Virus record (IMG/VR): IMGVR_UViG_3300025106_000007 | Coordinates: 1 to 30,821 of that record | Length of the DNA: 30,821 nucleotides | Strand: one strand, 5' to 3' | From: a virus | Shown: positions 2,651 to 30,821 of the stretch, piece by piece | Position numbering within the stretch: the stretch's first letter is position 1 | How the letters are laid out: each line of letters opens with the position of its first letter | Position numbers and translations under genes: made by a program | The notes under the pieces: model-generated | The model's database searches: none | What the model was told of the DNA's origin: nothing | The model's input: only the letters and a program-made list of their open reading frames with translations

Positions 2651-2696
2651 CCTGCCTGCCTTGCCGGTAGGCAGGCCTGCCTTGCCGGTAGGCAGG
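2651..2696. repeat. Palindromic element, two tandem 21-bp copies
   Basis: Two identical 21-bp units (2655-2675 and 2676-2696), each containing CTGCCTTGCCGGTAGGCAG, follow a partial CCTG. They belong to the TTGCCGGTAGG subtype also found at 28413 and 30451. They lie ten bases after the HNH gene, in a gap without a clear gene. Confidence 0.95.
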
Positions 2697-6418: not shown

Positions 6419-6747
6419 TTTACGTTCCCAAGTCTGCGCCCATGCCTATCCTGATTGAGAAAGGCATGACCGGGCGGCGAATGCGTGTCTTCGACGAGGG
6501 TGAGTTGGAGCGGCGTCTGCAAGCCGGCACTGTGCGTGAGCTTGGGCGTAATTTCTACGCGGCTACTGGGTTAGATATTGCCAAGCGGCCGAAGGTTGTG
6601 GTGCCACCTGAGGATCTGGACTCCGAGATCGACGAGGATGAGCCGCAGACCTATCAGACCCGTGACATGACGGCTACTCGCAAGCGCGGGCGTCCCATGC
6701 CTACCGGCAGGCAGGCCAGCCTACCGGCAGGCAGGCGAGGAAGGTAA
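6415..6747 (+). CDS. Small structural-region protein with basic tail altered by repeats
   Basis: This 110-residue protein starts IYVPKSAPMPILIEKGMTGR and continues with a charged helical part and an acidic stretch (PPEDLDSEIDEDEPQ). It ends with an AT-hook-like RKRGRP. Two palindromic elements are then read in two different frames as MPTGRQ and LPAGR before RGR-stop. Without the inserts the protein would end in a short basic tail. Start is the ATGA overlap with the preceding gene. No family recognised; the basic tail could touch DNA. Confidence 0.7.
   Translation: MIYVPKSAPMPILIEKGMTGRRMRVFDEGELERRLQAGTVRELGRNFYAATGLDIAKRPKVVVPPEDLDSEIDEDEPQTYQTRDMTATRKRGRPMPTGRQASLPAGRRGR
6700..6735. repeat. 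Palindromic element, two copies four bases apart
   Basis: CCTACCGGCAGGCAGG at 6700-6715 and again at 6720-6735, separated by CCAG. The first is preceded by CATG like most copies. Both lie inside the 3' end of the gene ending at 6747 and keep it open, the two copies being read in different frames. Confidence 0.95.
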
Positions 6748-6751
6748 AGCC

Positions 6752-6770
6752 ATGCCTACCGGCAGGCAGG
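6752..6770. repeat. Palindromic element supplying a start codon
   Basis: ATGCCTACCGGCAGGCAGG lies exactly between the ribosome binding site and the ATGATG of the small gene. The 21-base unit, including GCC or CC junction bases, adds seven codons without changing frame, so translation can begin on the element itself. Confidence 0.9.
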
Positions 6771-6994
6771 CCATGATGTATCCGGTCGAGGGTGGCAAGG
6801 TCGAGATCAATCCGGATCAGATTGTTACCGCACACAAGGAAAAAGGCGGCGATCAATGGCGGCTGTACATGAATGACAATAAGGAAGTCATTGTGACTAA
6901 GCATGAGTATGCCGAGATCCGTCCATGCCTACCGGCAGGCAGGAAGCTGGTCGGGGCTACGGTGCGACTAGTATGCACTACGGAGGCTGAATGA
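6752..6994 (+). CDS. Small protein carrying two in-frame palindromic elements
   Basis: An 80-residue protein of unknown function. The body is MMYPVEGGKVEINPDQIVTA, then QWRLYMNDNKEVIVTKHEYA and a short beta-rich end. The first seven residues (MPTGRQA) are encoded by one element. The Shine-Dalgarno GAGGAAGG (6737-6744) is correctly spaced for the element's own ATG at 6752; the ancestral start is probably the ATGATG at 6773. A second element encodes CLPAGR inside the protein (6928-6943). The stop overlaps the portal start (ATGA). Both inserts preserve the frame, arguing that the gene is still used. Confidence 0.7.
   Translation: MPTGRQAMMYPVEGGKVEINPDQIVTAHKEKGGDQWRLYMNDNKEVIVTKHEYAEIRPCLPAGRKLVGATVRLVCTTEAE
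6928..6943. repeat. Palindromic element inside a coding region
   Basis: CCTACCGGCAGGCAGG preceded by CATG, read as CLPAGR within the 80-residue gene, between EIRP and KLVG. Confidence 0.9.
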
Positions 6995-8376: not shown

Positions 8377-11300
8377 ACGATTTTACTCCTGTTTATTCTG
8401 CCGTAGGGCGCATTCTCAAAGAACAACGCGCCGAGATTGATGCCGCTATCCTGGATCAGCACTCCAAGGTAACTGCGCTTGAGCAAGAGGTAGAAGAACT
8501 TCGTAAGCTCAATGGTCAGGATTTGCAGGATGCATTGTACCGTCTTGCCGATGCCAATCGGCGGATGGAGGCGCTTACTAAAAAGTGGCGTGAGCTGCAG
8601 TTGTCGTTCGTTCCTTACAATGACGCTGAAATTCGTAAGCAGTTAGAAGAGCATACCGCAAGTTTACTCAAGCTGTTTGCTGCTGGTGATGTGGCAAATG
8701 ATTTGCGCGATGAGCTCCAAGCAGTACAAGAGCAGCTCGATGTACTGCCATCCGCAGTAAACGAACAGCGCGAAAAGAATCAGACCGAGATCAGGCACAG
8801 CATCGAGCTGCTTGAGCAGAAAATCCATACTCGGTTGGCGCAGATTGAGAAAGCGCCTGGTCCGCAGGGTGAGCGTGGCATCCAAGGGCTCCAGGGAGCT
8901 CCAGGACGTGATGCGGACCCTGAAGCCGTAGCTTTGCACTTGCGTACGGATGAAGCCTTTAAAAAGGCGCTGGTAGGCCCTGAAGGCAAACCTGGCGAGA
9001 AAGGCGATCCAGGACAGGACGGCATTGGGCTCAACGTTAAGCTCTGGGCTCAGGGAATCCATCGAGCCGGCACACTGGTGCAGCATGACTTCGGCTGCGT
9101 TTCCCTTGCACTGAAGGATACCAATGCGCGCCCCGGCGACTCTGAAGACTGGGAACGTGTAGGTAGCGGCGGTTTCCGTTGGCGTGGAGTAAAAAGCAAG
9201 AACGCTTCTTACCGCGATGGCGATTTGTACATCGAGGAGGGGACTACCTTCCTGGTTGTAGACGGCAAGGGCCGGATGCTAGCCAAGCGGGGTAGCGATG
9301 GCAAGCCGGGCACCAATGGCGCTGATGGGCGCAATGCCCCATTGCCGCTTGAGATCAAGTTTTTCGAGGATGGCGATGACACCAACCTCGCGCTGATTTT
9401 CGATGATGGCACTATCTGCGAAACGCAGATGCCAAAGATCATTTCCCATGCTGTAAAGACCTACCGCAATGTCCAGGCCGTAATGGACAAGATGGAGCGG
9501 GCGCTTGAGATCTTTGGCAGCACCGAGAAGGCGCTCAACTGGTTCATGGAGATCATCAGCCAGGGCGGCGAACCGACTGATAGTCCGATCCTGCGTTTCC
9601 GTGGTATTTGGCGGTCCGGCACCAGCTACAGCCGTGGCGATGTGGTAAGCTTCGGCAATAAGCTCTATATCGCACCAGCTTCGACTTCCAAGGACCGGAT
9701 GCAGGTTGATGACTGGGTTCTGTTTCATGCCGGTGGCGGTGGCTCTCCTCGCGGAAATATGGCTTGGCGTCAGCGTGAGTACCAGGCCGGAGCCATTGTC
9801 TATAACCCGGCGGACAACAACTGGTACCGGGCCTTACAGGCTGTCACGGCTGCCACCGGTTCGCCTGAGTTGCAAGCGAGTGCCCAAGACTGGGGACTGA
9901 TTGGGGGCCGGGGCGGCACCACGATTGAAATTTTTGATCCGACGAAGGCTTACCAGACTGGTGATCTGGTGCTCGTTGAGAGCGTGACTCATGAGTACCT
10001 GATCTTCCGAGCTGAAGCGCCCATCGCTGCGTCAAACAACCTGCCTGGTACGTCTGCCGCATCTAATCAGTGGAAGCAGGCAAGCACTCGTCCAACTGTG
10101 TGGGTAACGACGGTCCTCGGCGAGACTCCGGCAAACTTCGGAGTAAATCGCCCATCGACTGGTGCGACAACATGGGACCCGTCTGGCGGTATCCGTTGGC
10201 AAGCGACCGGACCCGATGGCTGGGACGCCCAGACTGCGGCGCATTTAACGCATTACCGTATGGAGCATGTTACTACGGATCTAACGGCTCATCCGGGCAC
10301 CTATCAGATCGGAACCAGGCTGTGGAAGCAAGATCCGAACGGCGCTTGGACAAACTGGGCTGGCGGTGGTGTCCCCCATGCCGTTGTTACCGCCGCTGGA
10401 ACCGAAATAACTCCTGACCTCGTCGCACATCCGCCAGCAATCACTATATTGCGTCCAACTGGCGGCGTTTTGACACCTGCCCCCGGTCTTTGGCAAGGCG
10501 TGCTTGTTACTAACGGGGTGCCGCGAATCGATCCGACTGGATTAGCGTTGGCGCTTTGCTTGGAAGACAGTGCTGGGGTCTTTGGCTGGACGGCCATTGA
10601 CAACGGGTTCTTCGCCCATGGCGACCAGAGTGTCATGAATGGACTTCTGTTTACCAATTTGTTCTCGACTTCGGGCAAACGCGATGACGTTCTCATAAAC
10701 ACGGCTGACCATACTGCGTGGATTCACGACGGCACCGATTGGGTCCCGCTCCAGCTAAAGGACCAGCTCTGGACCTCGAACATAGCCGGGCAGACACCGA
10801 CCACTGCGGGCATAACACCCACGTGGTCGGCTACCGGGGAGGCTTTCTCTGCTGCGATCCCTGGGGCGCAGTTCATCAATACCGCTGATCACATAAGTTG
10901 GACTTTAGTTCCTTTGGCGGCTGGCGGAACGGCGCAATGGATGCTCACGACCTCACATGCCTCGCAAGGTATGAGTGTTGCCGGTTTGATTGCAGTACCT
11001 TCGCCAATTGCCGACCCATCCGGTGCAGCAAGTGAGTGGGATGCCGTTGGCGGCGCAGGATGGGTAAATGGGCATTACATTGTGCATTCTGGCACTGGTG
11101 GAAATGGTTTACAAGTTCGGTTTGTCGATAAGGCCGGTAATAATCTTCAGTCTCAATTTGCTTCGTTATCGCTTGGTGCTGGAGATACGATCCAGATAAC
11201 GGACAGCACAGGGCAAACGTTGCGTTATGAGCTGGGCGCTGCACCAGTGCTGGATGTCAACTCAATCATGTTCCCGAAGGCGGGCGGCTTGTCTGGTAAT

Positions 11301-17719: not shown

Positions 17720-20596
17720 ATGGCTAGATCTTACCGTGATGTTGTAACTCGCTTGACTTTACAGATCCAAGGATGGGAAGCCGGGATTAAACGGCTGGAG
17801 CAATCCAATGAAAGGGTTGCCAATTCAGTTAAAAGCATCGAGTCACGTACTTCCAACTTCGCAAAAAACATAGCTGGCGCGTTCTCAATAGCCGCAGTTA
17901 AGAATGTTGGCTCGTTCCTGTCCAGTCTTCAACAACTGGACAACCGGCTTAAAGGCATTTCAGGCTCTAGTCAAGCTTATGCTGAGAATCTAAACTACAT
18001 CCGGGATGTATCATCACGATTTGGTTTGGCACAGGAGACGGTTCAGAAAGGCTTTACCAACCTTGCGGCCGCCGCGCAGATAGCTGGCAAATCAGTACGC
18101 GAGGCGCAGTCTGAGTTCACTGCGCTAGCTACCGCGGCGAGCGGAGCCGGGCTGTCTTCTGCCGAGCTTGAGGGTGTGCTCCTTGGATGGACTCAGCTCT
18201 CTGGCAATGCTGTTGTAAACCTTGAGGACTTGAGGCAGGTAGTAGACAGGCTACCTGGCGGGCTCAATCTTGCATTGAAAGCAATGCAGGACATGACTGG
18301 CAACACGGAGCTTACTGGCGACGCGTTCAAGAAGCTTGTATCTCAAGGTGCAGTAACGACTGACAAGTTCCTGCCTGCTCTGACAAAACAGCTTCAATCC
18401 GCTTTCGGCGCATCGGCACAGAAGAACGCCGAATCAATGGCGTCAAACATTACGCGATTCAATAATGCCTTGCGTGAGGTGGCAAGGCTAATAACCGAGT
18501 CTGCGCCGTTCCGAATTTTGACCGAGACCATGGAAGGGCTCAATAGCGTGCTTGGGTTATTAAACGAAAATTTGGATGTCGCCAGCGCAAAGCTTCAAGG
18601 TCTGCAGGTACAGACCAACCCGGAGATCGTCGAGCAAGCCGCTAAGGTCGCAGAGCTAACTCAGCGCAGAATTGATTTAGAGCAAAAGCTTAAACAGCTT
18701 GAGCCTGATTCCCGCGCCTATTCCAGGTTAGCGTCGGAAATCGCAAAGGTTACAGCAAATCTGAGCCAGCAAAGAGGCGTGCTGGATCGGATGCAGGAAT
18801 CTTGGGTTAAAGCCGAGGTTGCTGCGAAAGAAACGGCCAAATCAACATCGGATATCGGCGGAACGCAGATCGCCGGTACTGCAGATGAAATCGACAAGAT
18901 CGCCAAGGCGCTGAACCTGACCGCCAAGGGCGCGGAAAACCTACGTAAATTTTTCCCGGCCATCTCGCAAGCTGCGCAGGAAACGGGCGTAGACATAACT
19001 ACCATTATCGGCAAAATTTCTGTAGAAACAGGTAAGTTTACAGCATTCGTCAATCCAAATAGTTCAGCCCGCGGGCCGGCTCAAATTGTAGCAAAGACAG
19101 CAAAATATCTTGCAGACAAATATGGGTTCAGTTATGAGGCTCTTCGTACAGGAACAGATGAATGGGTACAAAATATCCGGGCCGGTGCTGCTTACCTTAA
19201 AGAGCAATATCAAGGGGTTGATTCTGAATTAGAGGCATTAGCTAAATATTTCCTCGGACCAGGCGATTTCAAGAAATACGGACTTGATTATACTACAGGC
19301 CCGAACGCCGGATTAACCGGGAGAGGATATGGAACTAAAATCATTTCAGAGGCAAACAAAGTCCGCGCTGTATTAGGAGATACTGGCGACGTAACGGCAA
19401 AGCTAACTGAGATTCAGAACAAACAACGAGAATCACTAAAGGCACTTGAAGACCAATACCGCGCCTATGGTGATGAGATTCAGGCGATAGACGCTGCGCA
19501 AGCCAAGCTCAACGAGTCCTTGTCCACAGCTAAGACAACATCCTTCGGCTCGGCAGCTGAGCTATCCAACATTCAAGCCATTGAGGCAGAGCTTGCCAAG
19601 CTGCAAGAGCGCGAGGATACGCTAGTCGCAGAACAAGCAAAGCTGTCGGCTAGCATTACTGAGATGGGCGGCACTGCAAAGGACGCAGGCGATGGCCTGA
19701 AGTCTGTTGGTGAGGCCGGAATCAAGGCGGCGGAAGGATTCGCCAAGGCGAACGAAAGCGCGGAATCCATGGTAGAGCGGCTGAAAACTGTTGCCGATGC
19801 TGTTGACCCGATGCGCTCATTACGCGAGGAATATGAGCTCACCATTAACGCAATCAATGATCTGTCTTTAATACCGGACATAGAGAAAAAGATAAACCTC
19901 GACCTTTCGGATCTTGAGCAAAAAGTTACTGCAAAGTTTGAGGTAGATGTTTCTAACATTGAGAGCGCAAAGACCGCAATCGGCAATCTCGGCATATCAT
20001 TCGAAGAACTGAAAATTCAGGGTATCGATGCAGTAAACGACGCGATGTCAAGCTTTATTGACGATCTGGTGGAAGGCACTGCAAGCGCCGAGGACGCGGT
20101 CAAGAGCCTGATCAAGCAGGTAGCCAAGCTCGCGCTACAATTCGCTGTCACCAATGCCTTCAAAGGCATTACGGGCTTATTCGGCAACGCCAAGGGCAAC
20201 GCTTACGACAAGCTGGCGTTGCCATATGGCGTCTACACAGCTCCCACGGTTTTTGCTCTGCCAGAAGCGGGCCCGCTCAAGCGCTACGCCAAGGGAGGCA
20301 TTTTGGGCGAGCGAGGAGCTGAGGCGGTGATGCCGCTGGCGCGGATGGCTAATGGAGATCTGGGTGTGCAGTCCAGCACGGTCACGGTTCAGCCTATCGT
20401 AAACATCACAGAGACAACCGACACGACAAAACAGGGAACGGTGAAAACGAGCACTAATAGTAATGGCGAATCAGTGATTGATGTGCTTATTGCTAAGGTT
20501 AAAGCTGAATTCCAGTCTGATGTAGGCTACGGCGGGACCTTCTCCAAAGTTATGGAGCAACAATATGGGCTGCGGCGTTCGTTAGGAGCTTACTAA
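17720..20596 (+). CDS. Tape measure protein with embedded lytic transglycosylase
   Basis: The 958-residue ruler of tail length. The N-terminus matches the tape-measure domain (QQLDNRLKGISGSSQAY, FGLAQETVQKGFTNLAAAA, NLEDLRQVVDRLPGGLNLAL). Long helical segments follow. Residues about 405-555 form an SLT-like domain with KISVETGKF (likely catalytic Glu436), NSSARGPAQIV and ALAKYFLGPGDFKKYG, presumably for local wall digestion during DNA entry. The C-terminus has the typical YAKGGILGERGAEAVMPLAR motif. It would specify a tail of roughly 140 nm by the usual 1.5 angstrom per residue rule. Confidence 0.93.
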   Translation: MARSYRDVVTRLTLQIQGWEAGIKRLEQSNERVANSVKSIESRTSNFAKNIAGAFSIAAVKNVGSFLSSLQQLDNRLKGISGSSQAYAENLNYIRDVSSRFGLAQETVQKGFTNLAAAAQIAGKSVREAQSEFTALATAASGAGLSSAELEGVLLGWTQLSGNAVVNLEDLRQVVDRLPGGLNLALKAMQDMTGNTELTGDAFKKLVSQGAVTTDKFLPALTKQLQSAFGASAQKNAESMASNITRFNNALREVARLITESAPFRILTETMEGLNSVLGLLNENLDVASAKLQGLQVQTNPEIVEQAAKVAELTQRRIDLEQKLKQLEPDSRAYSRLASEIAKVTANLSQQRGVLDRMQESWVKAEVAAKETAKSTSDIGGTQIAGTADEIDKIAKALNLTAKGAENLRKFFPAISQAAQETGVDITTIIGKISVETGKFTAFVNPNSSARGPAQIVAKTAKYLADKYGFSYEALRTGTDEWVQNIRAGAAYLKEQYQGVDSELEALAKYFLGPGDFKKYGLDYTTGPNAGLTGRGYGTKIISEANKVRAVLGDTGDVTAKLTEIQNKQRESLKALEDQYRAYGDEIQAIDAAQAKLNESLSTAKTTSFGSAAELSNIQAIEAELAKLQEREDTLVAEQAKLSASITEMGGTAKDAGDGLKSVGEAGIKAAEGFAKANESAESMVERLKTVADAVDPMRSLREEYELTINAINDLSLIPDIEKKINLDLSDLEQKVTAKFEVDVSNIESAKTAIGNLGISFEELKIQGIDAVNDAMSSFIDDLVEGTASAEDAVKSLIKQVAKLALQFAVTNAFKGITGLFGNAKGNAYDKLALPYGVYTAPTVFALPEAGPLKRYAKGGILGERGAEAVMPLARMANGDLGVQSSTVTVQPIVNITETTDTTKQGTVKTSTNSNGESVIDVLIAKVKAEFQSDVGYGGTFSKVMEQQYGLRRSLGAY

Positions 20597-20597
20597 A

Positions 20598-20987
20598 ATG
20601 GCGGCATATCCAAGTACACTCCCAAGTCCTACAATTGACTCTTATTCGATTACGCCGTTTGATCCAACAATCCGTACGGATATGGCGAACGGGTTGGCGA
20701 AAGTCAGGCGTGTTACTCGCAGGCGTGTAGACACAATTTCTGTACGTTGGACATTTACCAGAGTGCAGTTTGCTGCTTTTCGCAATTGGTGGCATGACAG
20801 TACTGGGGCGGATGGTGGAGCGGCCTGGTTTAATATTAAATTATACTCGGGTGTCCCAAGCTCAGGTGCGGCCGGTGGAGATTGTGAGCAACAGAATAAA
20901 GCACGATTTGCCGGCCCTTGGGCAGCTTCTCCGAATACTGCTTACTACTTCAATGTTACCGCCGACCTGGAGGTGGTAGATGCCTGA
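20598..20987 (+). CDS. Minor tail protein (gpM-like position)
   Basis: A 129-residue protein directly after the tape measure. Features are RRVDTISVRWTFTRVQFAAF and NWWHDSTGADGGAAWFNIKL, a pattern common in distal tail or tail-tip adaptor proteins of lambda-like phages. It overlaps the next gene by eight bases. The family call is from position and the W-rich segment. Confidence 0.65.
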   Translation: MAAYPSTLPSPTIDSYSITPFDPTIRTDMANGLAKVRRVTRRRVDTISVRWTFTRVQFAAFRNWWHDSTGADGGAAWFNIKLYSGVPSSGAAGGDCEQQNKARFAGPWAASPNTAYYFNVTADLEVVDA

Positions 20988-21483
20988 TACAACACTGAGT
21001 CAGGCAATCAAAGAGGCTTACGCCACAAAGCCAGAGATTGTTATTTATCATACTCTAGAGTTTAGCCATCCCAGTCTTGCTAATTCGATTAGAGTAGTGC
21101 AGGGGTTTCACGACATTACTGCCGAGGGGCAAAACTGGCAAGCAGTTCCGTTTGAGCTGGTATTGCCTGAAGTTACTGAACTGTCTCCACCAAATATTTC
21201 TATCAAAATTGACGCAGTGGCTGGCTACATTTTAGAGGCAATTGAAACCATCGCCGCTACGATGACCAATGACCCAATCAAGGTGACCTACAGGGCGTTC
21301 TTGGAAACTGCGATGGGGGCCCCGGCCAATCAACCGCCACTGTCATTGTCACTTTCTGATATCAGTGTAAACGAGTTTTCCGTAACTGCTACTGCCAGCC
21401 TGTCTCCATTGAATAATAGGAAATGGCCACGACGCATTTACACTGACGATGATTTTCCAGGATTGCTCAGTGTCACTTCCTAA
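20980..21483 (+). CDS. DUF1833-type tail protein (gpL-like position)
   Basis: A 167-residue protein with AIKEAYATKPEIVIYHTLEF at the start, PFELVLPEVTELSPPNISIK in the middle and RKWPRRIYTDDDFPGL at the end, all typical of the DUF1833 family found next to NlpC/P60 tail proteins. The KWPRRIYT motif is strongly characteristic. It overlaps both neighbours. Confidence 0.8.
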   Translation: MPDTTLSQAIKEAYATKPEIVIYHTLEFSHPSLANSIRVVQGFHDITAEGQNWQAVPFELVLPEVTELSPPNISIKIDAVAGYILEAIETIAATMTNDPIKVTYRAFLETAMGAPANQPPLSLSLSDISVNEFSVTATASLSPLNNRKWPRRIYTDDDFPGLLSVTS

Positions 21484-21868
21484 CTGGACAAACGATTATC
21501 TTGGGCTGCCGTTCATTGTGGGTGAGCGGGACTGCTGGTCATTCTTTAGGCAAGTGCAGAATGATCAATTCAAGCGTAAAGTGGCAGCGATTGATATTAA
21601 TGCCAAAGACACTCTGGCAGTTATGCATACCGTGGCAAACCATTTAGAAAGAAAGCTATGGTTTGAAACGGATGATCCTCAACTGGGTGATGGTGTTTTA
21701 ATGGCAAAGGGCGAGCATCCTTTCCATGTCGGTTGCTATATCGGATCAGACTATATATTGCATTGTATCGAGCCAATTGGTGTAATCCTTCAGACCATCG
21801 TCAGCTTGCGCCTTCACGGCTGGCAGAATTTACGGTTTTATCGTCATGCATCTTGTTACGTTCAATAA
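21449..21868 (+). CDS. NlpC/P60-like tail tip peptidase (gpK-like)
   Basis: This 139-residue protein probably cleaves peptide bonds of the wall during infection. It shows YLGLPFIVGERDCWSFF with the candidate nucleophile Cys in RDCW, and HPFHVGCYIGSDYILHC with the partner His. It overlaps DUF1833 by 35 bases if the ATG at 21449 is used; the GTG at 21470 (VSLPNWTNDYLG) is an equally good start and removes most of the overlap. The 3' end overlaps the J-like gene by 23 bases. Confidence 0.8.
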   Translation: MIFQDCSVSLPNWTNDYLGLPFIVGERDCWSFFRQVQNDQFKRKVAAIDINAKDTLAVMHTVANHLERKLWFETDDPQLGDGVLMAKGEHPFHVGCYIGSDYILHCIEPIGVILQTIVSLRLHGWQNLRFYRHASCYVQ

Positions 21869-24800
21869 TCCTTTCGATCCTGGCGACCATACTGTAACGC
21901 CAATCGAGCATCCGTGCTGGCTTGCTGAGCTTAGCCCAGAGGAAGATGAGCGTGCCTATATCATGCTGGTCAACGGACATCCGATCTTGCGTAGTGATTG
22001 GGACGTAACCTGGATTGACGGTAATGACCTAGTAACGGTTGGTTATCTCCCAGCAGGCGGCGGTGACACCAAAGACATATTTCGTGCGGTCGCATTGATT
22101 GCTGTTGCGGCTGTTGCTTGGTGGGCTGGTGGAGCATTGGCCGCCGGGCTCACTTCATCGGGCCTAGTTGCGTCTTCTACTGCAGCTACTGCAATAGGTG
22201 GTGGACTTTCACTTGCTGTTGCGGCTGGTGGATCAATCCTTGTCAATGCGTTGATCCCAGTCACTTCACCCTATGTAAAAGAAACGGCAGATAGTACTTT
22301 CAATCAGTCCCCAACTTATTCAATTAGTGGTGGAAATAACACTGCCAGACTGGGGCAAGTAATTCCTGTTCAATATGGCCGGATGAAGTTCTTCCCGGAC
22401 TTCGGTGCTGCTCCTTGGACTTGGTATAGATGGAATGAGCAGGATTTATATGAACTGCTTATACTTGGAGAAGGCGAATACGCGATAGAAAGTATCGCAA
22501 TTAATGACGTAGATATAAGCAACTATACCGATGTTGCTTGGAGACAATACGGACCAAATGAAGATCCGGATTTATTTCCTACCCAAATATTTTCCACAAG
22601 TGCTGGAAATCATTTATTGGAGAACATGTACCAGCAGGGGTCCGGTGGTGAGCGATGGTCCCCCGCTATAATTGCCAATCCAGCCGGGACGATATTAAAT
22701 GGCGTACATATTGATATTAATGCTCCAGCTGGCGCTTATCGTATAGAGGAAGATACGGGTGATATAAAAGATATTCCAATAGGCATCAGAGCAGAACTTA
22801 GACATATCGATCAATCCGCTAATCCAATATCACCCTGGACTTTGGCTGGAGAATGGTGGGTCACTTATAGTACTAGAGAGGCTATTAGAGTCTCGTATTC
22901 TTTGACAGTCCCAGCTAATTGGCAAAGAGTGCAAGTCCGCGTATGCAGAGTTGATAAAACAGTTAGCTCTAGTGAAAGAGTTGTCGATAAGTTTTATTTA
23001 GAAACTGTTAAAGGCGGGACATTTACTTCAGCTGGTAGTTTGGCGGCCACTAGCAAGCTTGCTATAAAAGTTAGAGCTTCAAATCAGTTGACTAGTCAAA
23101 CGGCGGTTAAAGTTTCAGTAATTGGAACTCGCAAGTTAAAGCTGTTCCGCAATGGTGCATTTCAAACGACGGCCACAGCTACGAGAGGGTGCGGTGATGC
23201 GCTGATCGATGCGTTGACCAATGACGTATATGGTGCCGGGCTACCGATCACGCGCCTTGATATTCCAGCTATGCTGGCGTTGAATAATATAGAATTCGAC
23301 GGACGTTTTGATAGTTCATCTACAGCTTGGGAAGTAATTACCACGATTGCTAAGGTTGCGCGGGCAGTTGTCTATTCCCAAGGTGGTTTGCTGCGTGTTG
23401 CTAGAGATACTGGAAAAGGCCCCACTGTTGCGGTTTTCTCTTCCCGCAATATTGTAGCTGGTAGTTTTGCTCTTGATTATGTAGTCCCAACGGAAAATAC
23501 GGCAGAAGCTGTAAAAGTAGAGTACTGGGACGAGACAGTATGGGCACAACGATATGTGTCCGTTCGTTACGATGGCGCACAGCTTAGCGAGGAGGACGTA
23601 GAGGCTTCTGTTAATCTATTTGGTTGTGTTAATAGAAATAGGGCCTATAGCGAGGCGTGGTATTTAGCTCGTTCTAATCGCTATAGACGTAGACTGATTT
23701 CTTTCCAAACAGAGATGGAGGGATTTATTCCGTCACTCGGCGATGAAATCAGTGTTAGCTATGATATGCCCGGTTGGGCAAAAAGCGTAGACATCAAGGC
23801 TTGGCTGAATTCAACTACAGTACAATTTGCCGAAGCAATTGATTGGGCATCAATCGGCGGCGGCGCAACAATTGCGTTTCAAGGTGCAGATAATAGCCGA
23901 CTAACCGCTATTGGAGTAACACGTGGGTCTGCAGATGACATAGGCGTATTGGTTAGTGCTCCAAGTCAAAGCGTTATTCCTGGTAAGCAGTTTGGAGTAA
24001 TCGCCACGACCTCTAATTTTTCACGTGTTGCTATTGTCACTAAAGTAACGCCAGCCTCTTTGCATTTGGTGACAATCGAAGCGATTATTGATGATACGCG
24101 GGCACATGATAATTCACCGACCCCGCCGACTCCTACTCCACCGATTCGGCCTTGTCCAACGCCAACCGTTGTGGGTCTCCAGCTTTCTGGATTTCCTGGC
24201 TATGTCATAGTAGCTAATTGGGATGCGGATAGCTGTGCTAAATATTTTGTTGTCGAATACGCCCAATGGACTGGGGCGACTCCGCCAGCAACAGGCTGGT
24301 ATAAAGCGGGGAACTACAATTACAAAACTGCACGATTCACATCTGCTATTGGTGGAGACATTTGGGTTCGAGTAGCGGCTGTCGGTGATAACCAAGGAGC
24401 ATGGGTATATAGCAATACTAGGGCCATAGCTGCTGGAGTTCCCGGAAATCCAACTGGCGGTCCACCAGCTCCGACCAATATTATTTGTACTTCATTCATT
24501 GGCGCGCTATTACTGGAATGGCTAAACCATCCATCAGCCGAAGCTGTGCAGGTATTAAGGGCACCGGTAGCAGATGTAGCAAGAACAGAACTAATTGCAA
24601 CAGTACGGCATGCCGAACGATATTTCGACCGGTCAATGCCGCAGCTTGGCATTCCGTATTACTACTACCTGCGGAGTGTTGATGTTAATGGTCTGGTTGG
24701 ACCGGAATCAGTAGTTAAAAGCTGTATTCCAGACAGGTATGTTAAAGATGTAATTGATGAAATACATGGCGTCATCGACAAAAGTTGGCTTACCCAAGAG

Positions 24801-27263
24801 CTTATTCAATTTATAACCTACGGAAATCCATACGCGCAAGAGATCTCCGATAGGCTAGACAGCATTCAAGGAGCACAACCTTGGGACTCAACCAGAAATT
24901 ATAAAGCCGGTGAATATGTTACTTTCAATGGCGATTTATATCTGTCAACACAGCCAAGCTTAAATAAGCAACCCGATCAAAATCCTAATGAATGGCACAA
25001 TATTGGCCAATATGCCGGAGCATTGGCGGCGTTAGGCGTTCGTATTGATACAGTAGTAGCGGAGGTCAATAAACAATCCGGAGATATTAATAATCTTGCT
25101 CAACAGATAAATGCTGTTCAAGCAAACCAAGGAGTCCATAATCTCTTAAACGATCCGCAGTTTGAATATGATACAACGTGGACGTTTTTGAGTGCTGATG
25201 TTACTGGCCCTGCCGTCAAATATGCTACTTATACTAGCGGGCTCTTTGGCGCACGTGCGTTAAAAACAGGAGTAGCGTCTAATGAGCGAACAGCAAGACT
25301 GTCGTCTACTGGTGCCACCATTTCAACGAGCTATGTGCAAATTGCTCAGTCTCCTTTGCCGGTAGAGGTAAACAAACGGTACCAATTCTCTGCTTATGTT
25401 GGCGCGTTACCACATGCAGTTTCTCTTTTCATTCTGTTTTATGATTCGGCCGATACACTCTTAACTACGGAATCAGCAGTTGTAGCAGCCACTAAAAGCG
25501 GCGGCAATGCACTCACCGACTGGGATCGTCCGGTAGTGTTTGGTGTTGCTCCTGCTGGTGCAGTTTATGCGCGTGTTATCATACGCATAACTCAGAATGG
25601 CACTGCCAGCCAGAGTAATTTAACCGCCTATATAGTTCGCCCCATGTTTGCTGTTGCCGGGGCGACCCAAACTGAGCCCAGCACTTGGGGTCCGGGCTTG
25701 TCTGCAGCGGCGGAGGCGTTTAATACACTTAGGTCACAAGTCACTACAATAGACGGAAGGGTCACGGCAAATGCAACGGCTATCACAGCGGCAAATGCAG
25801 AGTTAACTGCTCAAAATAATCGGATTACTGGCAATGCGAACGCGCTTACTACGCTAGACACAAAAGTAACAAATATCGATGGGAAGATAGCTGCAAACGC
25901 AACGGACATCTCAGAGCTTCGGGCGCAAACCGGAAGCGCGAACCTACTTAATGACCCAATATTTGAATCCAAATTGGGTATAGCGTGGTTTAAAACATAT
26001 TCAGCCGGAGTTGTTGGACCGAGCTATTGGCAAGGGAATTCTTCTGATTGGAATCAAATTCTTTATACTCAAGAGACCGGAATAAATGCTAGTGCCGCTT
26101 CAATACCAGCAAACAATCATGTAGGTATATATCAACTTGTTTCAGTTATAGGCTCTACTTGGTATGCGCTTTCTGTTCATTTATCGATACTCAATACAAC
26201 GTGCAGGATTGCGATTACTTGGTTAGATGTAAATAAAAATGTGATAGTTGTCTCATCCAGAGACATTGTTCCTACAACGCCAGCTGATGGACCGTCTTCT
26301 ATTTATTGGCCTCGCTTTTTATTAAATGCCCAGTCCCCGGCTAATGCGCGGTTTGCTTATATCTATTTACTTAACGTCGGTCCGGCCTCAGGAACGCACA
26401 CTGTATTTTTCTTTAGGCCACAACTTTGGTACTCAACTGCGAAAACTACTCTTCCTCCCCCATGGACTCCTGGAGAAAACCCTCCACTGTTCGCTGCACT
26501 CAAGCGCGAAGGCATGGCATGGGCCGATGGTACAGGCGGCGGAGGTGTAAAATATACAGTCAAGGCGGAGATCGAGGACGGCGATAATATCGTTCAAGCC
26601 GGTTATGGGCTTTCAGTAGTAAAAGAAGACAATCAATGGGTTTCTGATTTCTTTATTAATGCCAATAGATTTGCGATACGTGACCCGGCGGCTGTTCCAG
26701 GCACTGGTTTACAATATCCATTTGTTGTAATGAATGGCAATGTCTATATGCGTAATGCATATATACAGAATGCCTCAATTGACAACGCCAAGATTGCTAA
26801 CCTGGCAGTCACAAACATTAAAATGGCGGAGTATTCTAACGTACTCGCTGGAAATTTTAGCGCGCATTTGAGTAATGGCGGCGCTGCATGGTTTAATGTA
26901 TGGTCCGGATCAGATTGGTCAAGCAAAAGAATACTGTTTTTTCTTATTGGGCACACCGATTTCTACCCTGATAGTTTTTCTGGCGGCTCAATACAAGTAG
27001 GATTAAAATCTAGTAACAATGATGCACTTATAGATTCCAGTTTTCATGGTTCTGCTGAAAAATATACCAACCTCATACAAGAAACAGGCATGGCCACCGT
27101 TTTAGTAAAAACGAGTGATGGGGAGGCAGGACGAAAAATAGTGTATGGTACGATTGCGGTTGATATACAAGCATCGGGCAATATTCCTTTTTATATTTGG
27201 TCTTATTACAATAGATGCAGTACCCCATATGTTCAGGTTAGTTGGATATTAGGGCAAAAATAA
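21846..27263 (+). CDS. Tail tip / host specificity protein (J-like) with fused sugar-binding modules
   Basis: An 1805-residue central tip protein. Residues about 75-145 hold the hydrophobic segment typical of J proteins (AVALIAVAAVAWWAGGALAA). A hub region follows (NNTARLGQVIPVQYGRMKFF). A Pro/Thr linker at 756-774 leads to two fibronectin-III-like domains. Then comes a carbohydrate-binding-like module near 1012-1055 (DSTRNYKAGEYVTFNGDLYL). After it a coiled coil plus a beta domain is present twice, each opening with NLLNDPxFE (about 1099 and 1366). The C-terminus has VYMRNAYIQNASIDNAKIAN as in DUF1983-type J ends, then a tip domain. Far longer than lambda J (1132 residues). Confidence 0.9.
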   Translation: MHLVTFNNPFDPGDHTVTPIEHPCWLAELSPEEDERAYIMLVNGHPILRSDWDVTWIDGNDLVTVGYLPAGGGDTKDIFRAVALIAVAAVAWWAGGALAAGLTSSGLVASSTAATAIGGGLSLAVAAGGSILVNALIPVTSPYVKETADSTFNQSPTYSISGGNNTARLGQVIPVQYGRMKFFPDFGAAPWTWYRWNEQDLYELLILGEGEYAIESIAINDVDISNYTDVAWRQYGPNEDPDLFPTQIFSTSAGNHLLENMYQQGSGGERWSPAIIANPAGTILNGVHIDINAPAGAYRIEEDTGDIKDIPIGIRAELRHIDQSANPISPWTLAGEWWVTYSTREAIRVSYSLTVPANWQRVQVRVCRVDKTVSSSERVVDKFYLETVKGGTFTSAGSLAATSKLAIKVRASNQLTSQTAVKVSVIGTRKLKLFRNGAFQTTATATRGCGDALIDALTNDVYGAGLPITRLDIPAMLALNNIEFDGRFDSSSTAWEVITTIAKVARAVVYSQGGLLRVARDTGKGPTVAVFSSRNIVAGSFALDYVVPTENTAEAVKVEYWDETVWAQRYVSVRYDGAQLSEEDVEASVNLFGCVNRNRAYSEAWYLARSNRYRRRLISFQTEMEGFIPSLGDEISVSYDMPGWAKSVDIKAWLNSTTVQFAEAIDWASIGGGATIAFQGADNSRLTAIGVTRGSADDIGVLVSAPSQSVIPGKQFGVIATTSNFSRVAIVTKVTPASLHLVTIEAIIDDTRAHDNSPTPPTPTPPIRPCPTPTVVGLQLSGFPGYVIVANWDADSCAKYFVVEYAQWTGATPPATGWYKAGNYNYKTARFTSAIGGDIWVRVAAVGDNQGAWVYSNTRAIAAGVPGNPTGGPPAPTNIICTSFIGALLLEWLNHPSAEAVQVLRAPVADVARTELIATVRHAERYFDRSMPQLGIPYYYYLRSVDVNGLVGPESVVKSCIPDRYVKDVIDEIHGVIDKSWLTQELIQFITYGNPYAQEISDRLDSIQGAQPWDSTRNYKAGEYVTFNGDLYLSTQPSLNKQPDQNPNEWHNIGQYAGALAALGVRIDTVVAEVNKQSGDINNLAQQINAVQANQGVHNLLNDPQFEYDTTWTFLSADVTGPAVKYATYTSGLFGARALKTGVASNERTARLSSTGATISTSYVQIAQSPLPVEVNKRYQFSAYVGALPHAVSLFILFYDSADTLLTTESAVVAATKSGGNALTDWDRPVVFGVAPAGAVYARVIIRITQNGTASQSNLTAYIVRPMFAVAGATQTEPSTWGPGLSAAAEAFNTLRSQVTTIDGRVTANATAITAANAELTAQNNRITGNANALTTLDTKVTNIDGKIAANATDISELRAQTGSANLLNDPIFESKLGIAWFKTYSAGVVGPSYWQGNSSDWNQILYTQETGINASAASIPANNHVGIYQLVSVIGSTWYALSVHLSILNTTCRIAITWLDVNKNVIVVSSRDIVPTTPADGPSSIYWPRFLLNAQSPANARFAYIYLLNVGPASGTHTVFFFRPQLWYSTAKTTLPPPWTPGENPPLFAALKREGMAWADGTGGGGVKYTVKAEIEDGDNIVQAGYGLSVVKEDNQWVSDFFINANRFAIRDPAAVPGTGLQYPFVVMNGNVYMRNAYIQNASIDNAKIANLAVTNIKMAEYSNVLAGNFSAHLSNGGAAWFNVWSGSDWSSKRILFFLIGHTDFYPDSFSGGSIQVGLKSSNNDALIDSSFHGSAEKYTNLIQETGMATVLVKTSDGEAGRKIVYGTIAVDIQASGNIPFYIWSYYNRCSTPYVQVSWILGQK

Positions 27264-27991
27264 TGAGACACGTAATAGTTGAGCTTCATACTGGCCGAAT
27301 CATTGGAGAATACGATCAGGCTAATATTGAATATATCCCTACGGCTGACCCGGCGATTACGGCTGAAACATATTATTGGGATGGGGCAAAGCTTGCACCA
27401 AGGCCACAACAGGTAAGCCACTGGAGCAAGAACGTACTCGATGCCGATGGAACAGACCACATTGTGATTACCGGTCTGTCGCAACATGCAAGCGTGATGA
27501 TACAAGAAACCGGGCGTGATCTACATGTTGATCCAACTGGATTAGTGCAACTCTCATTTACAGAGCCAGGTACTTATACGCTTGTAGTAGAAGACTTTCC
27601 GAAAGCCAAGTATGTTCAGCACATATTGGCGCGGAGTGTAACGTCTACGCCAGTTGCGTGGACTCCGCCGGCTATTACGCCTGTTATGCCATTGCCAGTT
27701 ACTGGCGATGGACAGCATACCGTGATAGCTGGGTTTATATTTGATTTTCATGATGCTTTGGTTCCTTTGCCCGGTAAGACAGCAACGATTGTTTACAATG
27801 TAGGAGCCGCAGATATTACCGTGCCAGTGCCACTACAGGATTCATTGGCTGGTGACGAAGTATTGGAACATCTTAAAGATGCGTTGCTTCATGAAACAGG
27901 ATTTTTAACTGTTTTTGTATCCGGCTATACGTTGCAAATTGTCCCTGATATGAACGTTGTTCTTAGTAAATTTGATGTGACAATAGCATGA
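27263..27991 (+). CDS. Tail accessory protein with triplicated domain, copy 3
   Basis: This 242-residue protein is coupled to the J stop (TAATG). The first 50 residues (IIGEYDQANIEYIPTADP and YYWDGAKLAPRP) look like a chaperone or tip-attachment segment. Residues about 60-115 form a small beta domain. The last about 110 residues repeat the domain of the proteins at 5466 and 5924: ITPVMPLPVTGDG, FHDALVPLPGKTATIVYNVG and ADITVPVPLQ. So this uncharacterised domain is attached to both head-side and tail-side genes. Function unknown; virion surface or decoration is inferred. Confidence 0.75.
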   Translation: MRHVIVELHTGRIIGEYDQANIEYIPTADPAITAETYYWDGAKLAPRPQQVSHWSKNVLDADGTDHIVITGLSQHASVMIQETGRDLHVDPTGLVQLSFTEPGTYTLVVEDFPKAKYVQHILARSVTSTPVAWTPPAITPVMPLPVTGDGQHTVIAGFIFDFHDALVPLPGKTATIVYNVGAADITVPVPLQDSLAGDEVLEHLKDALLHETGFLTVFVSGYTLQIVPDMNVVLSKFDVTIA

Positions 27992-28239
27992 TAATTAACA
28001 TTGGCCCAGACATAGATGAGCTACGCCATCGGTATTTGGCCGAAGGATTGAGCCATCTGTACGAGAAAAGCCCGAAGCTCAAAAAGGCACGAACGCTTGG
28101 GCATTTATCCAAGCATTCCGTACCAGAGCATTGGAAAGACCAAGTAGAAACGTTCTACGATGATATTATGACGGCGAGTACCGTTCCGGAGTGCCTAGCG
28201 CTTCTCCGGAAATGGCAAGAGAAGACGTGGGAAGAATAA
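27988..28239 (+). CDS. Small helical protein closing the tail operon
   Basis: An 83-residue protein with DIDELRHRYLAEGLSHLYEK and PECLALLRKWQEKTWEE, largely alpha-helical. ATGA overlap couples it to the preceding gene. It could be a tail-fibre assembly factor by position; no family recognised. It is the last plus-strand gene and faces the minus-strand operon. Confidence 0.65.
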   Translation: MIINIGPDIDELRHRYLAEGLSHLYEKSPKLKKARTLGHLSKHSVPEHWKDQVETFYDDIMTASTVPECLALLRKWQEKTWEE

Positions 28240-28245
28240 GTGCCG

Positions 28246-28267
28246 GCCTGCCTGCCGGCAGGCAGGC
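28246..28267. repeat. Perfect 22-bp palindrome between convergent operons
   Basis: GCCTGCCTGCCGGCAGGCAG plus GC is identical to its reverse complement. It lies in the 42-bp gap between the last plus-strand and last minus-strand genes, where a bidirectional transcription block would be expected. No U-tract is present on either side. Confidence 0.95.
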
Positions 28268-28281
28268 TGCGCTCAGGGCGC

Positions 28282-28695
28282 TCATTTGCAACCATCGCTC
28301 CATATTTTGTAGCCTCTATCGCCTGGTCGGCTCATGCCTACCGGCAGGCAGGTGTCCCAACTAGGCACCTTGATCTGCTGAAAAATTGGCTCCAGGTCTG
28401 TGGTCTTACGCTCCTGCCTTGCCGGTAGGCAGGTGCCATTTGGTCTTACAGGCGAACGATACTTGCCAACGGTTTTGGAGCAGGACGTACAGGGGGTGGC
28501 ATATCCGTTCAGCTCCCGGTAAGCCGCGCCGGTGCGAAGGCGCTCCAGCACATTGCTACGGGACATCTTCTGGACCCTGCCGCAGCACTCCATGCGCACG
28601 ATGAATCTAATGTCGCCATCACCTTGGTCGCGTGGAGCGCGTAGCACGGTAATGCCGGCATCCGGGTAATGCTTAGTTTCAATCACTTTTTTCAT
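28282..28695 (-). CDS. Zinc-ribbon-like protein with two in-frame palindromic elements
   Basis: A 137-residue protein of unknown role. RMECCGRVQKMSRSNVLERL and YATPCTSCSK give a CC plus CxxC set that may bind zinc. Two elements are read in frame: NGTCLPARQER (28413-28433) and WDTCLPVGMSRP (28337-28352). The start is the ATG at 28695, seven bases after GGAG; the ATG at 28701 is too close to it. It is the last gene of the minus-strand operon. Confidence 0.6.
   Translation of the reverse strand: MKKVIETKHYPDAGITVLRAPRDQGDGDIRFIVRMECCGRVQKMSRSNVLERLRTGAAYRELNGYATPCTSCSKTVGKYRSPVRPNGTCLPARQERKTTDLEPIFQQIKVPSWDTCLPVGMSRPGDRGYKIWSDGCK
28337..28352. repeat. Palindromic element inside a gene
   Basis: CCTACCGGCAGGCAGG preceded by CATG, read on the minus strand as TCLPVGM within the 137-residue zinc-ribbon-like gene. 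Confidence 0.9.
28413..28433. repeat. Palindromic element inside a gene, TTGCCGGTAGG subtype
   Basis: The 21-bp unit is identical to the two at 2655-2696 and to the one at 30451. It is read on the minus strand as CLPARQ between PNGT and ERKTT. Confidence 0.9.
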
Positions 28696-28707
28696 TATCA
28701 TACTCCA

Positions 28708-28785
28708 TCACATATTTCTCCATCGATGCCAACCGCAAGCAATTAACGCAGGAGCTTCGCCATCTTTTTCAATCGTGATTTTCAT
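28708..28785 (-). CDS. 25-residue peptide gene in the minus-strand operon
   Basis: The ATG at 28785 opens MKITIEKDGEAPALIACGWH followed by RWRNM. GGAGACC lies just upstream, inside the end of the preceding gene, and the stop lies near the next gene's GGAG. Spacing and coupling argue for translation; the function is unknown. Confidence 0.45.
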   Translation of the reverse strand: MKITIEKDGEAPALIACGWHRWRNM

Positions 28786-28951
28786 GCTGGTCTCCGTTTT
28801 TCAGCCGGTTGGCGTGTGAAGCTAACATCTCGATTCCCGAGGCTTTGGCGATCACATCAGCCCATTCTTCACGGTGGATAGCCATCAGGATGTTTTGCCA
28901 TTCCTGCCGTATTTGCCAGGCAACGCTTTCGTATTCGCTGTCGTGTACCAT
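28769..28951 (-). CDS. 60-residue helical protein, unknown function
   Basis: A charged protein with SVAWQIRQEWQNILMAIHRE and DVIAKASGIEMLASHANRL, predicted helical. AAGGTAAG lies before its ATG. It overlaps the next 25-residue gene by 17 bases. Such short proteins are typical of phage early or accessory operons. No family recognised. Confidence 0.55.
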   Translation of the reverse strand: MVHDSEYESVAWQIRQEWQNILMAIHREEWADVIAKASGIEMLASHANRLKNGDQHENHD

Positions 28952-28961
28952 TGTCTTACCT

Positions 28962-29051
28962 TTAGAAAACCAGATATAAGATAGCTATCCATGCAGCTAT
29001 TCCGAAAATGGCAGCGTAGATCCAGACTGCGCTTTTTGAAATGCGTATCAT
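28962..29051 (-). CDS. 29-residue membrane peptide
   Basis: MIRISKSAVWIYAAIFGIAA then WIAILYLVF is a basic N-terminus plus one membrane span. The ATG lies one base beyond the stop of the upstream gene and has GGGGA before it. It would be missed by length filters. Function unknown. Confidence 0.5.
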   Translation of the reverse strand: MIRISKSAVWIYAAIFGIAAWIAILYLVF

Positions 29052-29052
29052 T

Positions 29053-29289
29053 TTAGATTTCCCCATCGACTCTTTTGAAGCTCACGCTTATACGCCTAAC
29101 AGCCTCATCAAGCTTGTCTGCCCATTTACGATACCGCAAGGCATCGCTCGGTTGTTTGTGCGCAAGATGCTCGGCTTCGCGTCGCCAATCTGCTGCTGAC
29201 ACAGTAAGCTCTTTAATGACGGCCTCTGCGCTGTTTGGGGTGTAGTGGTAATGGTTTAGGATGCTGAAATATTCTCGGCTGCTTAGCAT
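29053..29289 (-). CDS. 78-residue helical protein, unknown function
   Basis: A soluble protein with AVIKELTVSAADWRREAEHL and DALRYRKWADKLDEAVRRIS, mostly alpha-helical. It overlaps the end of the upstream secreted-protein frame by 77 bases, a large overlap that suggests one of the two has a wrong end. Unrecognised. Confidence 0.55.
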   Translation of the reverse strand: MLSSREYFSILNHYHYTPNSAEAVIKELTVSAADWRREAEHLAHKQPSDALRYRKWADKLDEAVRRISVSFKRVDGEI

Positions 29290-29494
29290 TGTTAATTTTC
29301 TCCACCAGTTTGGTTTGTCGCCTAAGTTCGCGCTCCATACGCTTCTGGCGAGCTTCCTGCTGGTGCTGCTCGTTGATCTCGTGAAGGCGCTGCCAGCGCT
29401 CCAGGTTGAAGTCCTCGGCCGCCCATGCCTCCCGGCAGGCAGGCGCAGGGAGCGCGAGGATGGCGGCGAGGAGGGTTGGGATTATTTGGTTCAT
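29213..29494 (-). CDS. Small exported protein with an in-frame palindromic element
   Basis: A 93-residue protein beginning MNQIIPTLLAAILALPAPA, a signal-peptide-like start, followed by PACREAWAAEDFNLERW and a long charged helix (NEQHQQEARQKRMERELRRQ). PACREA comes from a palindromic element inserted at the likely cleavage region. In this frame the usual element would give a stop codon (TAG), but here it reads GAG. ATGA overlap couples it to the upstream membrane protein. A small periplasmic coiled-coil protein, possibly spanin-like, is one guess. Confidence 0.6.
   Translation of the reverse strand: MNQIIPTLLAAILALPAPACREAWAAEDFNLERWQRLHEINEQHQQEARQKRMERELRRQTKLVEKINNAKQPRIFQHPKPLPLHPKQRRGRH
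29428..29443. repeat. Palindromic element with a stop-removing substitution
   Basis: CCTCCCGGCAGGCAGG, preceded by CATG, differs from the common CCTACCGGCAGGCAGG by one base. On the minus strand this changes TAG to GAG in the frame used by the exported protein, keeping it open. Confidence 0.9.
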
Positions 29495-29622
29495 TTGAGC
29501 ATCGGCAATGTGCCGAGAGCCGCCAGGAACCAGATCACTACGCCGGGCAGGCCGAAGAATAGGCCGATTGGGAAAGTGATTGCCAGGATGGCGATGTTGA
29601 TGAATTTGCGGGTGTTGGTCAT
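29491..29622 (-). CDS. 43-residue membrane protein
   Basis: MTNTRKFINIAILAITFPIG then LFFGLPGVVIWFLAALGTLP is a short basic N-terminus followed by one long or two short membrane segments. AGGA precedes the ATG, which lies two bases after the upstream stop. It is coupled by ATGA to the exported protein. Paired membrane and exported small proteins recall holin/spanin sets, but this is only suggestive. Confidence 0.6.
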   Translation of the reverse strand: MTNTRKFINIAILAITFPIGLFFGLPGVVIWFLAALGTLPMLK

Positions 29623-29624
29623 GT

Positions 29625-30479
29625 TTAGTTCCTGGTTGGTGCCGTCCAGATAGAGTTCTCCGCCATTTGCACGGCTGACGCGGCCAGCAGCCGGCTAAGC
29701 GGTTCCAGGTCCAGCATCTGAGCGCGCTGACAGACCGTGAGGACCCGGTCGAAGTGGGTCTCCAGCAGCTGTTGAATCTGGTACTTGCCATCAACCACGC
29801 CGTCGATGATGTACAAGGCAAGGATTTCAGCGGCCTTGGCCAGGTGGTACAGGCCGATCAGCTCCAACGCGGCGGCCTTGGCGGTCGCCGGGTCCAGACC
29901 TTCGAGATACCGCTGCTCGAAGGCGGCTTGGGCACCGCGCAGCCGGGCCACTCCTTCGAGCACCGCATCGCGATCCGTCCAGCCCTGCTTGCGAATGAGC
30001 CGAAGCCAGACATCCAAGATGGTCGACCAGGTGCGCGCCCGCCAGTCTTCGGCGTCCAGGGGAAGACCAAGCCAGGGTTCTTTGGCGAGCCAGCGTGCGG
30101 CGTCCGCCCCCTTGTCGCCGAGCACAGCAAGCGCACCGGCCCGCAATAGAAAGACAGCCGTGTCTATAGGGTCTGCTGGCCTGCCTGCCGGTAGGCATGG
30201 CCTGGACAGTGCGCGCATCAACCGGAAGGCGTCAGCGGCACATTGACGAAGCTCCAGCTGCGCTTGCTCGTCCTCTCCGACGCCGTCGAGCAGCAAACCG
30301 AGGGCCGCAAGCTCCAATGCCTCCGCCGCTCGTGCAACGAGCCGAGTGTCTTCGTCGATCGGTCGGTCCAGCAGCTCCCGGTGGATTTGCACCCGGCTGG
30401 CCTGCCGCAGGGCCTCCGCTCTGGTCGGGGCGATGAGGTCGAGCAACCGGCCTGCCTTGCCGGTAGGCAGGTGGCTCAT
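29625..30479 (-). CDS. 284-residue helical protein of unknown function, coupled to rep
   Basis: I do not recognise this protein. It is alpha-helical and Ala/Leu/Arg-rich (EALRQASRVQIHRELLDRPI, LVARAAEALELAALGLLL, GARLRGAQAAFEQRYLEG-like segments). The G+C content is clearly higher than that of the tail genes. Its ATG overlaps the stop of the Rep-like gene (ATGA), so the two are probably co-translated. Two palindromic elements are read in frame: HLPTGKAGR at the N-terminus (30451-30471) and RPCLPAGRP (30180-30195). Long plus-strand frames across the same DNA are shadows. A replication, partition or maintenance accessory is inferred only from coupling. Confidence 0.65.
   Translation of the reverse strand: MSHLPTGKAGRLLDLIAPTRAEALRQASRVQIHRELLDRPIDEDTRLVARAAEALELAALGLLLDGVGEDEQAQLELRQCAADAFRLMRALSRPCLPAGRPADPIDTAVFLLRAGALAVLGDKGADAARWLAKEPWLGLPLDAEDWRARTWSTILDVWLRLIRKQGWTDRDAVLEGVARLRGAQAAFEQRYLEGLDPATAKAAALELIGLYHLAKAAEILALYIIDGVVDGKYQIQQLLETHFDRVLTVCQRAQMLDLEPLSRLLAASAVQMAENSIWTAPTRN
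30180..30195. repeat. Palindromic element inside a gene
   Basis: CCTGCCTGCCGGTAGG followed by CATGG, read on the minus strand as CLPAGR within the 284-residue protein. Confidence 0.9.
30451..30471. repeat. Palindromic element at the start of a gene, TTGCCGGTAGG subtype
   Basis: A 21-bp copy of the subtype at 2655 and 28413. It begins eight bases inside the ATG of the 284-residue gene and encodes LPTGKAG. Confidence 0.9.
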
Positions 30480-30821
30480 GATCTGCCCTTCCAGGAGACA
30501 TTCAGGGAGGTCTTCACCAGGTCCTTGACCGCGGGGTCGATCACCCGGGCCCTGAGGTTGGAGAAGCGGTCGTACTTCTCCTCGATCCCCAGGCCATGCC
30601 TACCGGCAGGCAGGCCATGCCTACCGGCAGGCAGGCCATGCCTACCGGCAGGCAGGCCATGCCTACCGGCAGGCAGGCCATGCCTACCGGCAGGCAGGCC
30701 ATGCCTACCGGCAGGCAGGCCATGCCTACCGGCAGGCAGGCCATGCCTACCGGCAGGCAGGCCATGCCTACCGGCAGGCAGGCCATGCCTACCGGCAGGC
30801 AGGCCATGCCTACCGGCAGGC
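30476..30821 (-). CDS. 3' end of a probable Rep_3-type replication initiator (partial)
   Basis: The last 38 codons before the stop read GLGIEEKYDRFSNLRARVID then PAVKDLVKTSLNVSWKGRS. The order LGI..KY..fsn.r.RVidPAvk.l...l.v matches the second winged-helix domain of Rep_3 (RepB/RepA) initiators, which bind iterons to start plasmid replication. Upstream the frame remains open through eleven 21-bp repeats (LPAGRHG eleven times) and leaves the window, so the N-terminal domains are missing. The repeat block sits directly against the conserved LGIEE segment. Only about 38 native residues support the call, so it is tentative. The stop overlaps the next gene by ATGA. Confidence 0.5.
   Translation of the reverse strand, partial: PAGRHGLPAGRHGLPAGRHGLPAGRHGLPAGRHGLPAGRHGLPAGRHGLPAGRHGLPAGRHGLPAGRHGLPAGRHGLGIEEKYDRFSNLRARVIDPAVKDLVKTSLNVSWKGRS
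30591..30821. repeat. Tandem array of eleven 21-bp palindromic units
   Basis: The unit (containing CATGCCTACCGGCAGGCAGG) repeats eleven times with no mismatch that I can see, exactly to the last base of the window. Being a multiple of three, it leaves five of six frames open. It lies within the Rep-like gene. The contig probably broke because the array is longer than the reads or k-mers, so the true copy number is unknown. Confidence 0.97.

Follow-up and report, generated by a model that had tools for sequence, protein, structure and literature searches.

A 20-21 bp palindromic element in a small phage gene, with its stop-forming base changed

A 21-bp palindromic element lies at positions 29423-29443 of the window (the whole stretch analysed here, 30,821 nucleotides of IMG/VR virus record IMGVR_UViG_3300025106_000007), inside a minus-strand ORF of 93 aa, and the base that would form a stop codon in that reading frame is changed. 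We think it fairly probable that a mobile 20-21 bp palindrome was recently inserted into this small phage gene, in a copy with the stop-forming base changed and the frame kept; this reading is limited by its single stop-frame example and by the metagenomic nature of the contigs.

The copy at 29423-29443 and its host gene

The 21-bp palindromic repeat of the window is CCATGCCTACCGGCAGGCAGG, and the copy at 29423-29443 reads CCATGCCTCCCGGCAGGCAGG on the plus strand, with C at 29431 where the standard copy has A. The minus-strand reading of this copy in the 93-aa ORF is CCT GCC TGC CGG GAG GCA TGG, or P-A-C-R-E-A-W, so that codon 29431-29429 is GAG in place of the TAG of the standard copy. The initial annotation had stated that one minus-strand frame of the standard element, CCT GCC TGC CGG TAG, contains a stop, and this is correct: it is the sole stop frame among the six, the other five being open. 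The same annotation rightly held that the only copy read in this frame has its stop changed, and that the substitution is peculiar to it. The 29423-29443 copy is the one stop-phase genic copy of the window and the one copy with C at the stop base, while all remaining genic copies in the window are read in open frames. Given that the 93-aa ORF is open, some stop-removing change in its element is required.

The host ORF (29213-29494, minus strand) encodes a small protein with a hydrophobic N-terminus and possible signal peptide (MNQIIPTLLAAILALPAPACREAWAAEDF...). The hydrophobic stretch, which has no positive charge, and an AxA site suggest that the protein is exported. Upstream lie a 43-aa membrane-protein ORF (29491-29622, minus strand) and, further up the gene run, a 284-aa ORF (29625-30479, minus strand), itself preceded by a Rep3 initiator gene. 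The ATG of the 93-aa ORF overlaps the stop of the 43-aa ORF (29622-29491) as ATGA, and the two are probably translationally coupled. This overlap, together with the run of upstream genes, supports minus-strand translation of the 93-aa ORF, which is plausibly a real gene. A codon-usage test at 29423 favoured the opposite strand by a small margin; codon-usage scoring of genic copies was rejected as too weak on sequences of 3-8 kb. The 93-aa protein has no match in Pfam or PHROGs, and a search for homologues of its gene that might show the empty site in an outside sequence found only the sister contig described below.

On the same contig, the Rep3 plasmid initiator stands beside HK97-type phage genes (terminase, portal, capsid), and the virus may be a phage-plasmid, judging from its gene content. 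The Rep3 protein shares 83% identity with a counterpart on a Thioflavicoccus mobilis plasmid, which points to Chromatiales plasmids. In the host search, the element core was absent from the two best-matching Chromatiales plasmids, and its CAT-ended form was absent from 369 Gammaproteobacteria.

Copies in the window and in a sister phage

Copies of the element are dispersed through the window and also form a tandem array where the contig ends. Alongside them is a sister form of 21 bp, CCTGCCTTGCCGGTAGGCAGG; the standard and the sister form are each one base longer than the 20-bp palindrome CCTGCCTRCCGGCAGGCAGG. Two double sister elements are found, one between ORF 125-595 and the terminase gene (632-673) and one after the HNH-like ORF 2309-2644 (2655-2696, plus strand). 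Two tandem elements (6695-6736, plus strand) form the C-terminus of ORF 6409-6747 in frame (MPTGRQASLPAGRR), the copy at 6696 being read in frame +1 and the copy at 6716 in frame +2; two more standard copies follow in noncoding sequence (6751-6770 and 6924-6943, within 6749-6944, plus strand). The perfect palindrome CCTGCCTGCCGGCAGGCAGG, with G at the stop base, occupies a noncoding gap between convergent ORFs at 28247-28266. ORF 28282-28701 (minus strand) contains a standard element in the open frame CLPVGM (28333-28352, plus strand) and a 21-bp sister element (28413-28433, plus strand), and the 284-aa ORF has two copies, in the open frames CLPAGR (30177-30198) and LPTGKAG (30451-30471). The terminal array (30594-30821, plus strand) consists of more than ten tandem 21-nt copies running to the contig end in the open frame (LPAGRHG)n, and comparison with positions 10706-10999 of the sister contig places it within the Rep3 initiator gene. 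Its units are perfect, iteron-like in length yet intragenic, and absent from the sister contig; the array may be an assembly artefact.

The sister contig, L009 (IMGVR_UViG_3300009455_000118), aligns to window positions 19738-30594 with a 99.5% match. Outside the elements, only 11 SNPs separate the two sequences in about 10.9 kb (~0.1% divergence), while whole palindromes differ at three interior sites and at the end array, so that the element shows the presence/absence between near-identical genomes that is characteristic of mobile elements. The standard copy at 28333-28352 is common to both contigs. At 28413, exactly 21 bp within the ORF are missing from L009, a clean difference with no target-site duplication. 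At 28247-28266, the place of the palindrome is taken in L009 by ~8 bp of unrelated sequence, which means that insertion there was accompanied by replacement.

In the gene under study, L009 lacks the window's insertion and has instead the sister element, a different 21-bp palindrome, 4 bp away from the 29423 site. Deletion of 21 nt from either allele gives the identical empty sequence CTCGCGCTCCCTGCGGCGGCCGAGGACTTC, reading LALPAAAEDF, although 23- and 24-nt common parses of the two alleles are also possible. Both alleles are in frame and open, with PACREAWA in the window and ACLAGRQA in L009. Because the same empty gene is recovered from either contig, the simplest reading of the alignment is that two recent, independent, frame-keeping 21-nt insertions took place 4 bp apart. 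The near-identical phage pair appears to catch insertion in progress, twice in one gene and within 4 bp.

The favoured course of events would be as follows. A dispersed 20-21 bp palindrome would land in a small phage gene, within the part that resembles a signal peptide, and its 21-bp form, equal to seven codons, would keep the frame. The copy that is seen, with GAG for TAG, would either have changed after landing or have been open on landing. If selection acts on translation of the host gene, only read-through insertions would be retained.

The element in other genomes and its relation to known repeats

At least 118 stretches of species genomes contain the pattern GCCTNCCGGCAGGCAGGC; they belong to Patescibacteria, Omnitrophota, Bacteroidota, Nitrospirota, Elusimicrobia and other groups. 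The core GCCTNCCGGCAGGCAGG was matched in 74 viral-contig stretches. The reversed pattern has zero matches in 40 element-bearing genomes. The highest count, about 190 pattern matches on both strands, comes from one Bacteroidales genome. Isolates are represented by Longitalea luteola (~30 copies), Olivibacter jilunii (~28) and Salegentibacter (~12). The consensus across six genomes is CCTGCCTRCCGGCAGGCAGG, with a unit of 20-21 bp and no conserved tag outside the palindrome. Rfam has no family for the element, and the literature searched for its sequence strings and for CLPAGRQ gave no match.

Several features of the surroundings of these copies deserve mention. Some elements are nested exactly inside other copies (L263-L282, L239, L241, L388), in the form CCTGCCTAC[CCTGCCTACCGGCAGGCAGG]CGGCAGGCAGG, with a clean 20-nt insert. 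Tandem heptamer repeats surround copies at L304, L335, L336, L012 and L134, and flank identity peaks at offsets 7 and 14. In several genome sets (L044, L068, L325, L385, L395) complementary flanks are more frequent than among shuffled pairs, which places the copies in the loops of larger hairpins. Spread of the element by replication slippage or by a hairpin-templated route is a hypothesis that copies in hairpin loops and beside heptamer repeats would fit. Of 406 copies, 11 have direct repeats of 7-8 bp on their flanks, where 0.3 would be expected, with a second peak at 14 and heptamer arrays at many sites; target-site duplication is not claimed, because of these tandem arrays and the likewise raised value at 14. 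In Olivibacter jilunii (L303-L320), most A-type copies are on one strand and clustered, nine of them within 42 kb of a single contig (C4), and this clustering may reflect the replication strand.

Many of the genic copies fall in well-recognised proteins. A-type copies are in frame within RsmH, trigger factor, aspartate-semialdehyde dehydrogenase (Asd), an Elp3-like radical SAM protein, CCA-transferase, TsaD, a GH1 glycosidase, PrmC, RecG and TrpD, and when RsmH and TsaD are aligned to solved structures, the element coincides with a gap. Within the ten bacterial genes recognised by Pfam, A-type copies are read in frames +0, +1, +2 and -1 and never in the stop phase (0/10); taken by itself, this deficit does not reach significance (p 0.16; 0.05 once the phage genes are added). 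The fully palindromic G-type copies, stop-free in all frames, are spread about evenly over the three phases (9/13/9). Where A-type copies keep the stop and are read in its phase (L023, L044, L085, L182, L313, L360, L376), they in every case either end a gene, as in L023, or lie in spurious or upstream ORFs. Survivorship of copies with an open frame inside genes is well supported by these observations. The stop-phase copy shows how selection can be tested, by comparing the stop base between frames over many genic copies.

Among described repeats, the Rickettsia palindromic elements (RPE; Ogata et al. 2000, 2002, reviewed in PMC10969869, PMC2229807), of ~100-150 bp and known from Rickettsia, are similar in that dispersed palindromes, besides their noncoding copies, interrupt conserved protein genes without breaking the frame and add a short peptide there. 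In-frame insertion in conserved protein genes is found here too, and in this respect the element works like an RPE; yet it is 20-21 bp long, is free of stops in five of six frames, and in all six in the G form, and occurs in many phyla and phages, so that neither the RPE length nor the Rickettsia host applies. REP elements of the GTAG and CGTC superfamilies (PMC3733652), palindromes of 20-40 bp with a GTAG or CGTC tag at one end, resemble it as high-copy short palindromes that are sometimes genic and form dimers and arrays, but the present element has no such end tag, GTAG being found only inside the palindrome. The Y1_Tnp (RAYT) domain was not detected in Olivibacter jilunii (G043), in Wolfebacteria G002 or in G071, some of the genomes being incomplete, and in Patescibacteria it is present in 4 of 9 genomes with the element and 10 of 22 without, which is no association. 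The tested GTAG-REP and RAYT features are therefore missing, and mobilisation by RAYT was rejected, as Y1_Tnp does not track the element. MITEs (Correia, ERIC and similar; PMC2229807, PMC10969869), small non-autonomous mobile repeats translatable in frame, share this last property, but the element is far shorter and has no separate terminal inverted repeats.

More broadly, and with less assurance than for the phage gene itself, we suggest that a single 20-21 bp palindrome may move within and between the genomes of many phyla and phages, with no identifiable transposase, as a frame-keeping read-through insert of seven codons, and that stop-phase insertions may survive only if the stop base is changed, thus recording selection on new coding DNA; this could well be the case, but we stop short of calling it probable. 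The RPE precedent has been treated as a peculiarity of one group, and a shorter palindrome in Patescibacteria, Bacteroidota, Omnitrophota and phages would generalise short protein insertions. The entry of the element into genes of distant bacteria is of more interest than the single case at 29423-29443.

Repair, establishment and other accounts of the open frame

C at the stop base is rare. It was seen in 4 of ~260 A-type-oriented copies, namely the window copy, two noncoding copies (L083 and L325) and L175, which is probably a chance match. Chance was also taken to explain C/T variants from GC-rich genomes that lack the C-N-T prefix. In 380 Patescibacteria genomes there are only three C/T at the stop base; this set gave one C copy beyond the four above (L344), and it is not in the stop phase. 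With the window copy as the only true stop-frame copy, the Fisher p is 0.015, and it is 0.06 when doubtful ones are included. The finding of C in noncoding or non-stop-phase copies (L083, L325, L344) indicates that this base, rare as it is, is not confined to stop-frame genes. The initial annotation had proposed to test whether the substitution is enriched only in the stop frame; on a sample of one stop-frame gene, C is rare elsewhere but not exclusive to that frame. Its suggestion of selection keeping the gene open after insertion stands in part. Persistence of open frames fits the wider set of genic copies, whereas repair after insertion is weakened by the same C copies and by the reliance on one stop-frame example. 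Its alternative, that an already open variant became established, fits the data equally well and is inseparable from repair.

That alternative involves no repair at all: a pre-existing open variant inserted, and insertions carrying the stop in this gene were lost. We regard this as possible, if somewhat doubtful. C variants make up ~1% of noncoding copies elsewhere, G-type copies are common and free of stops in every frame (with one in the window at 28247), and the ~0.1% divergence of the sister phages leaves little time for later mutation; against this, no C-type source of the CAT-ended form is seen in the window, in L009, in L014 or in other viral contigs.

It is unlikely that the open frame is a neutral coincidence, in which an ORF of little importance received an element that gained one random substitution. 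Such an account draws on the want of a recognised family or distant homologue for the ORF, and on there being a single substitution at a single site, in a copy where 8 of 60 possible changes remove the stop. But this is the only core substitution among the dispersed single copies of the window, and for one random core substitution over the eight such copies, 8 of 432 changes open the sole stop-frame copy (p ~0.02); moreover, both sister alleles are open in frame despite their different insertions, and the gene run, with its ATGA coupling, is suggestive of translation.

An assembly or sequencing artefact, in which repeats of 20-21 bp confused the assembly and led to errors in the base, in the insertions or in the end array, is improbable in our judgement, even with metagenomic contigs and a perfect terminal array found in only one of the two. 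Copies in isolate genomes (Longitalea luteola, Olivibacter jilunii, Salegentibacter) indicate that the element itself is not an assembly or library artefact, the insertions are shorter than one read, agreement between the two contigs elsewhere is 99.5%, and the rebuilt empty sites are identical. Equally improbable is the view that the palindromes are selected functional hairpins, serving as transcription attenuators or protein-binding sites, with genic copies as by-products: several copies do occupy intergenic or convergent-gene gaps (632, 2655, 6751, 28247) and genome copies are often within larger hairpins, but no Rfam family corresponds to them, the window forms give weak hairpins, copies come and go between near-identical phages, and many unrelated coding regions carry insertions.
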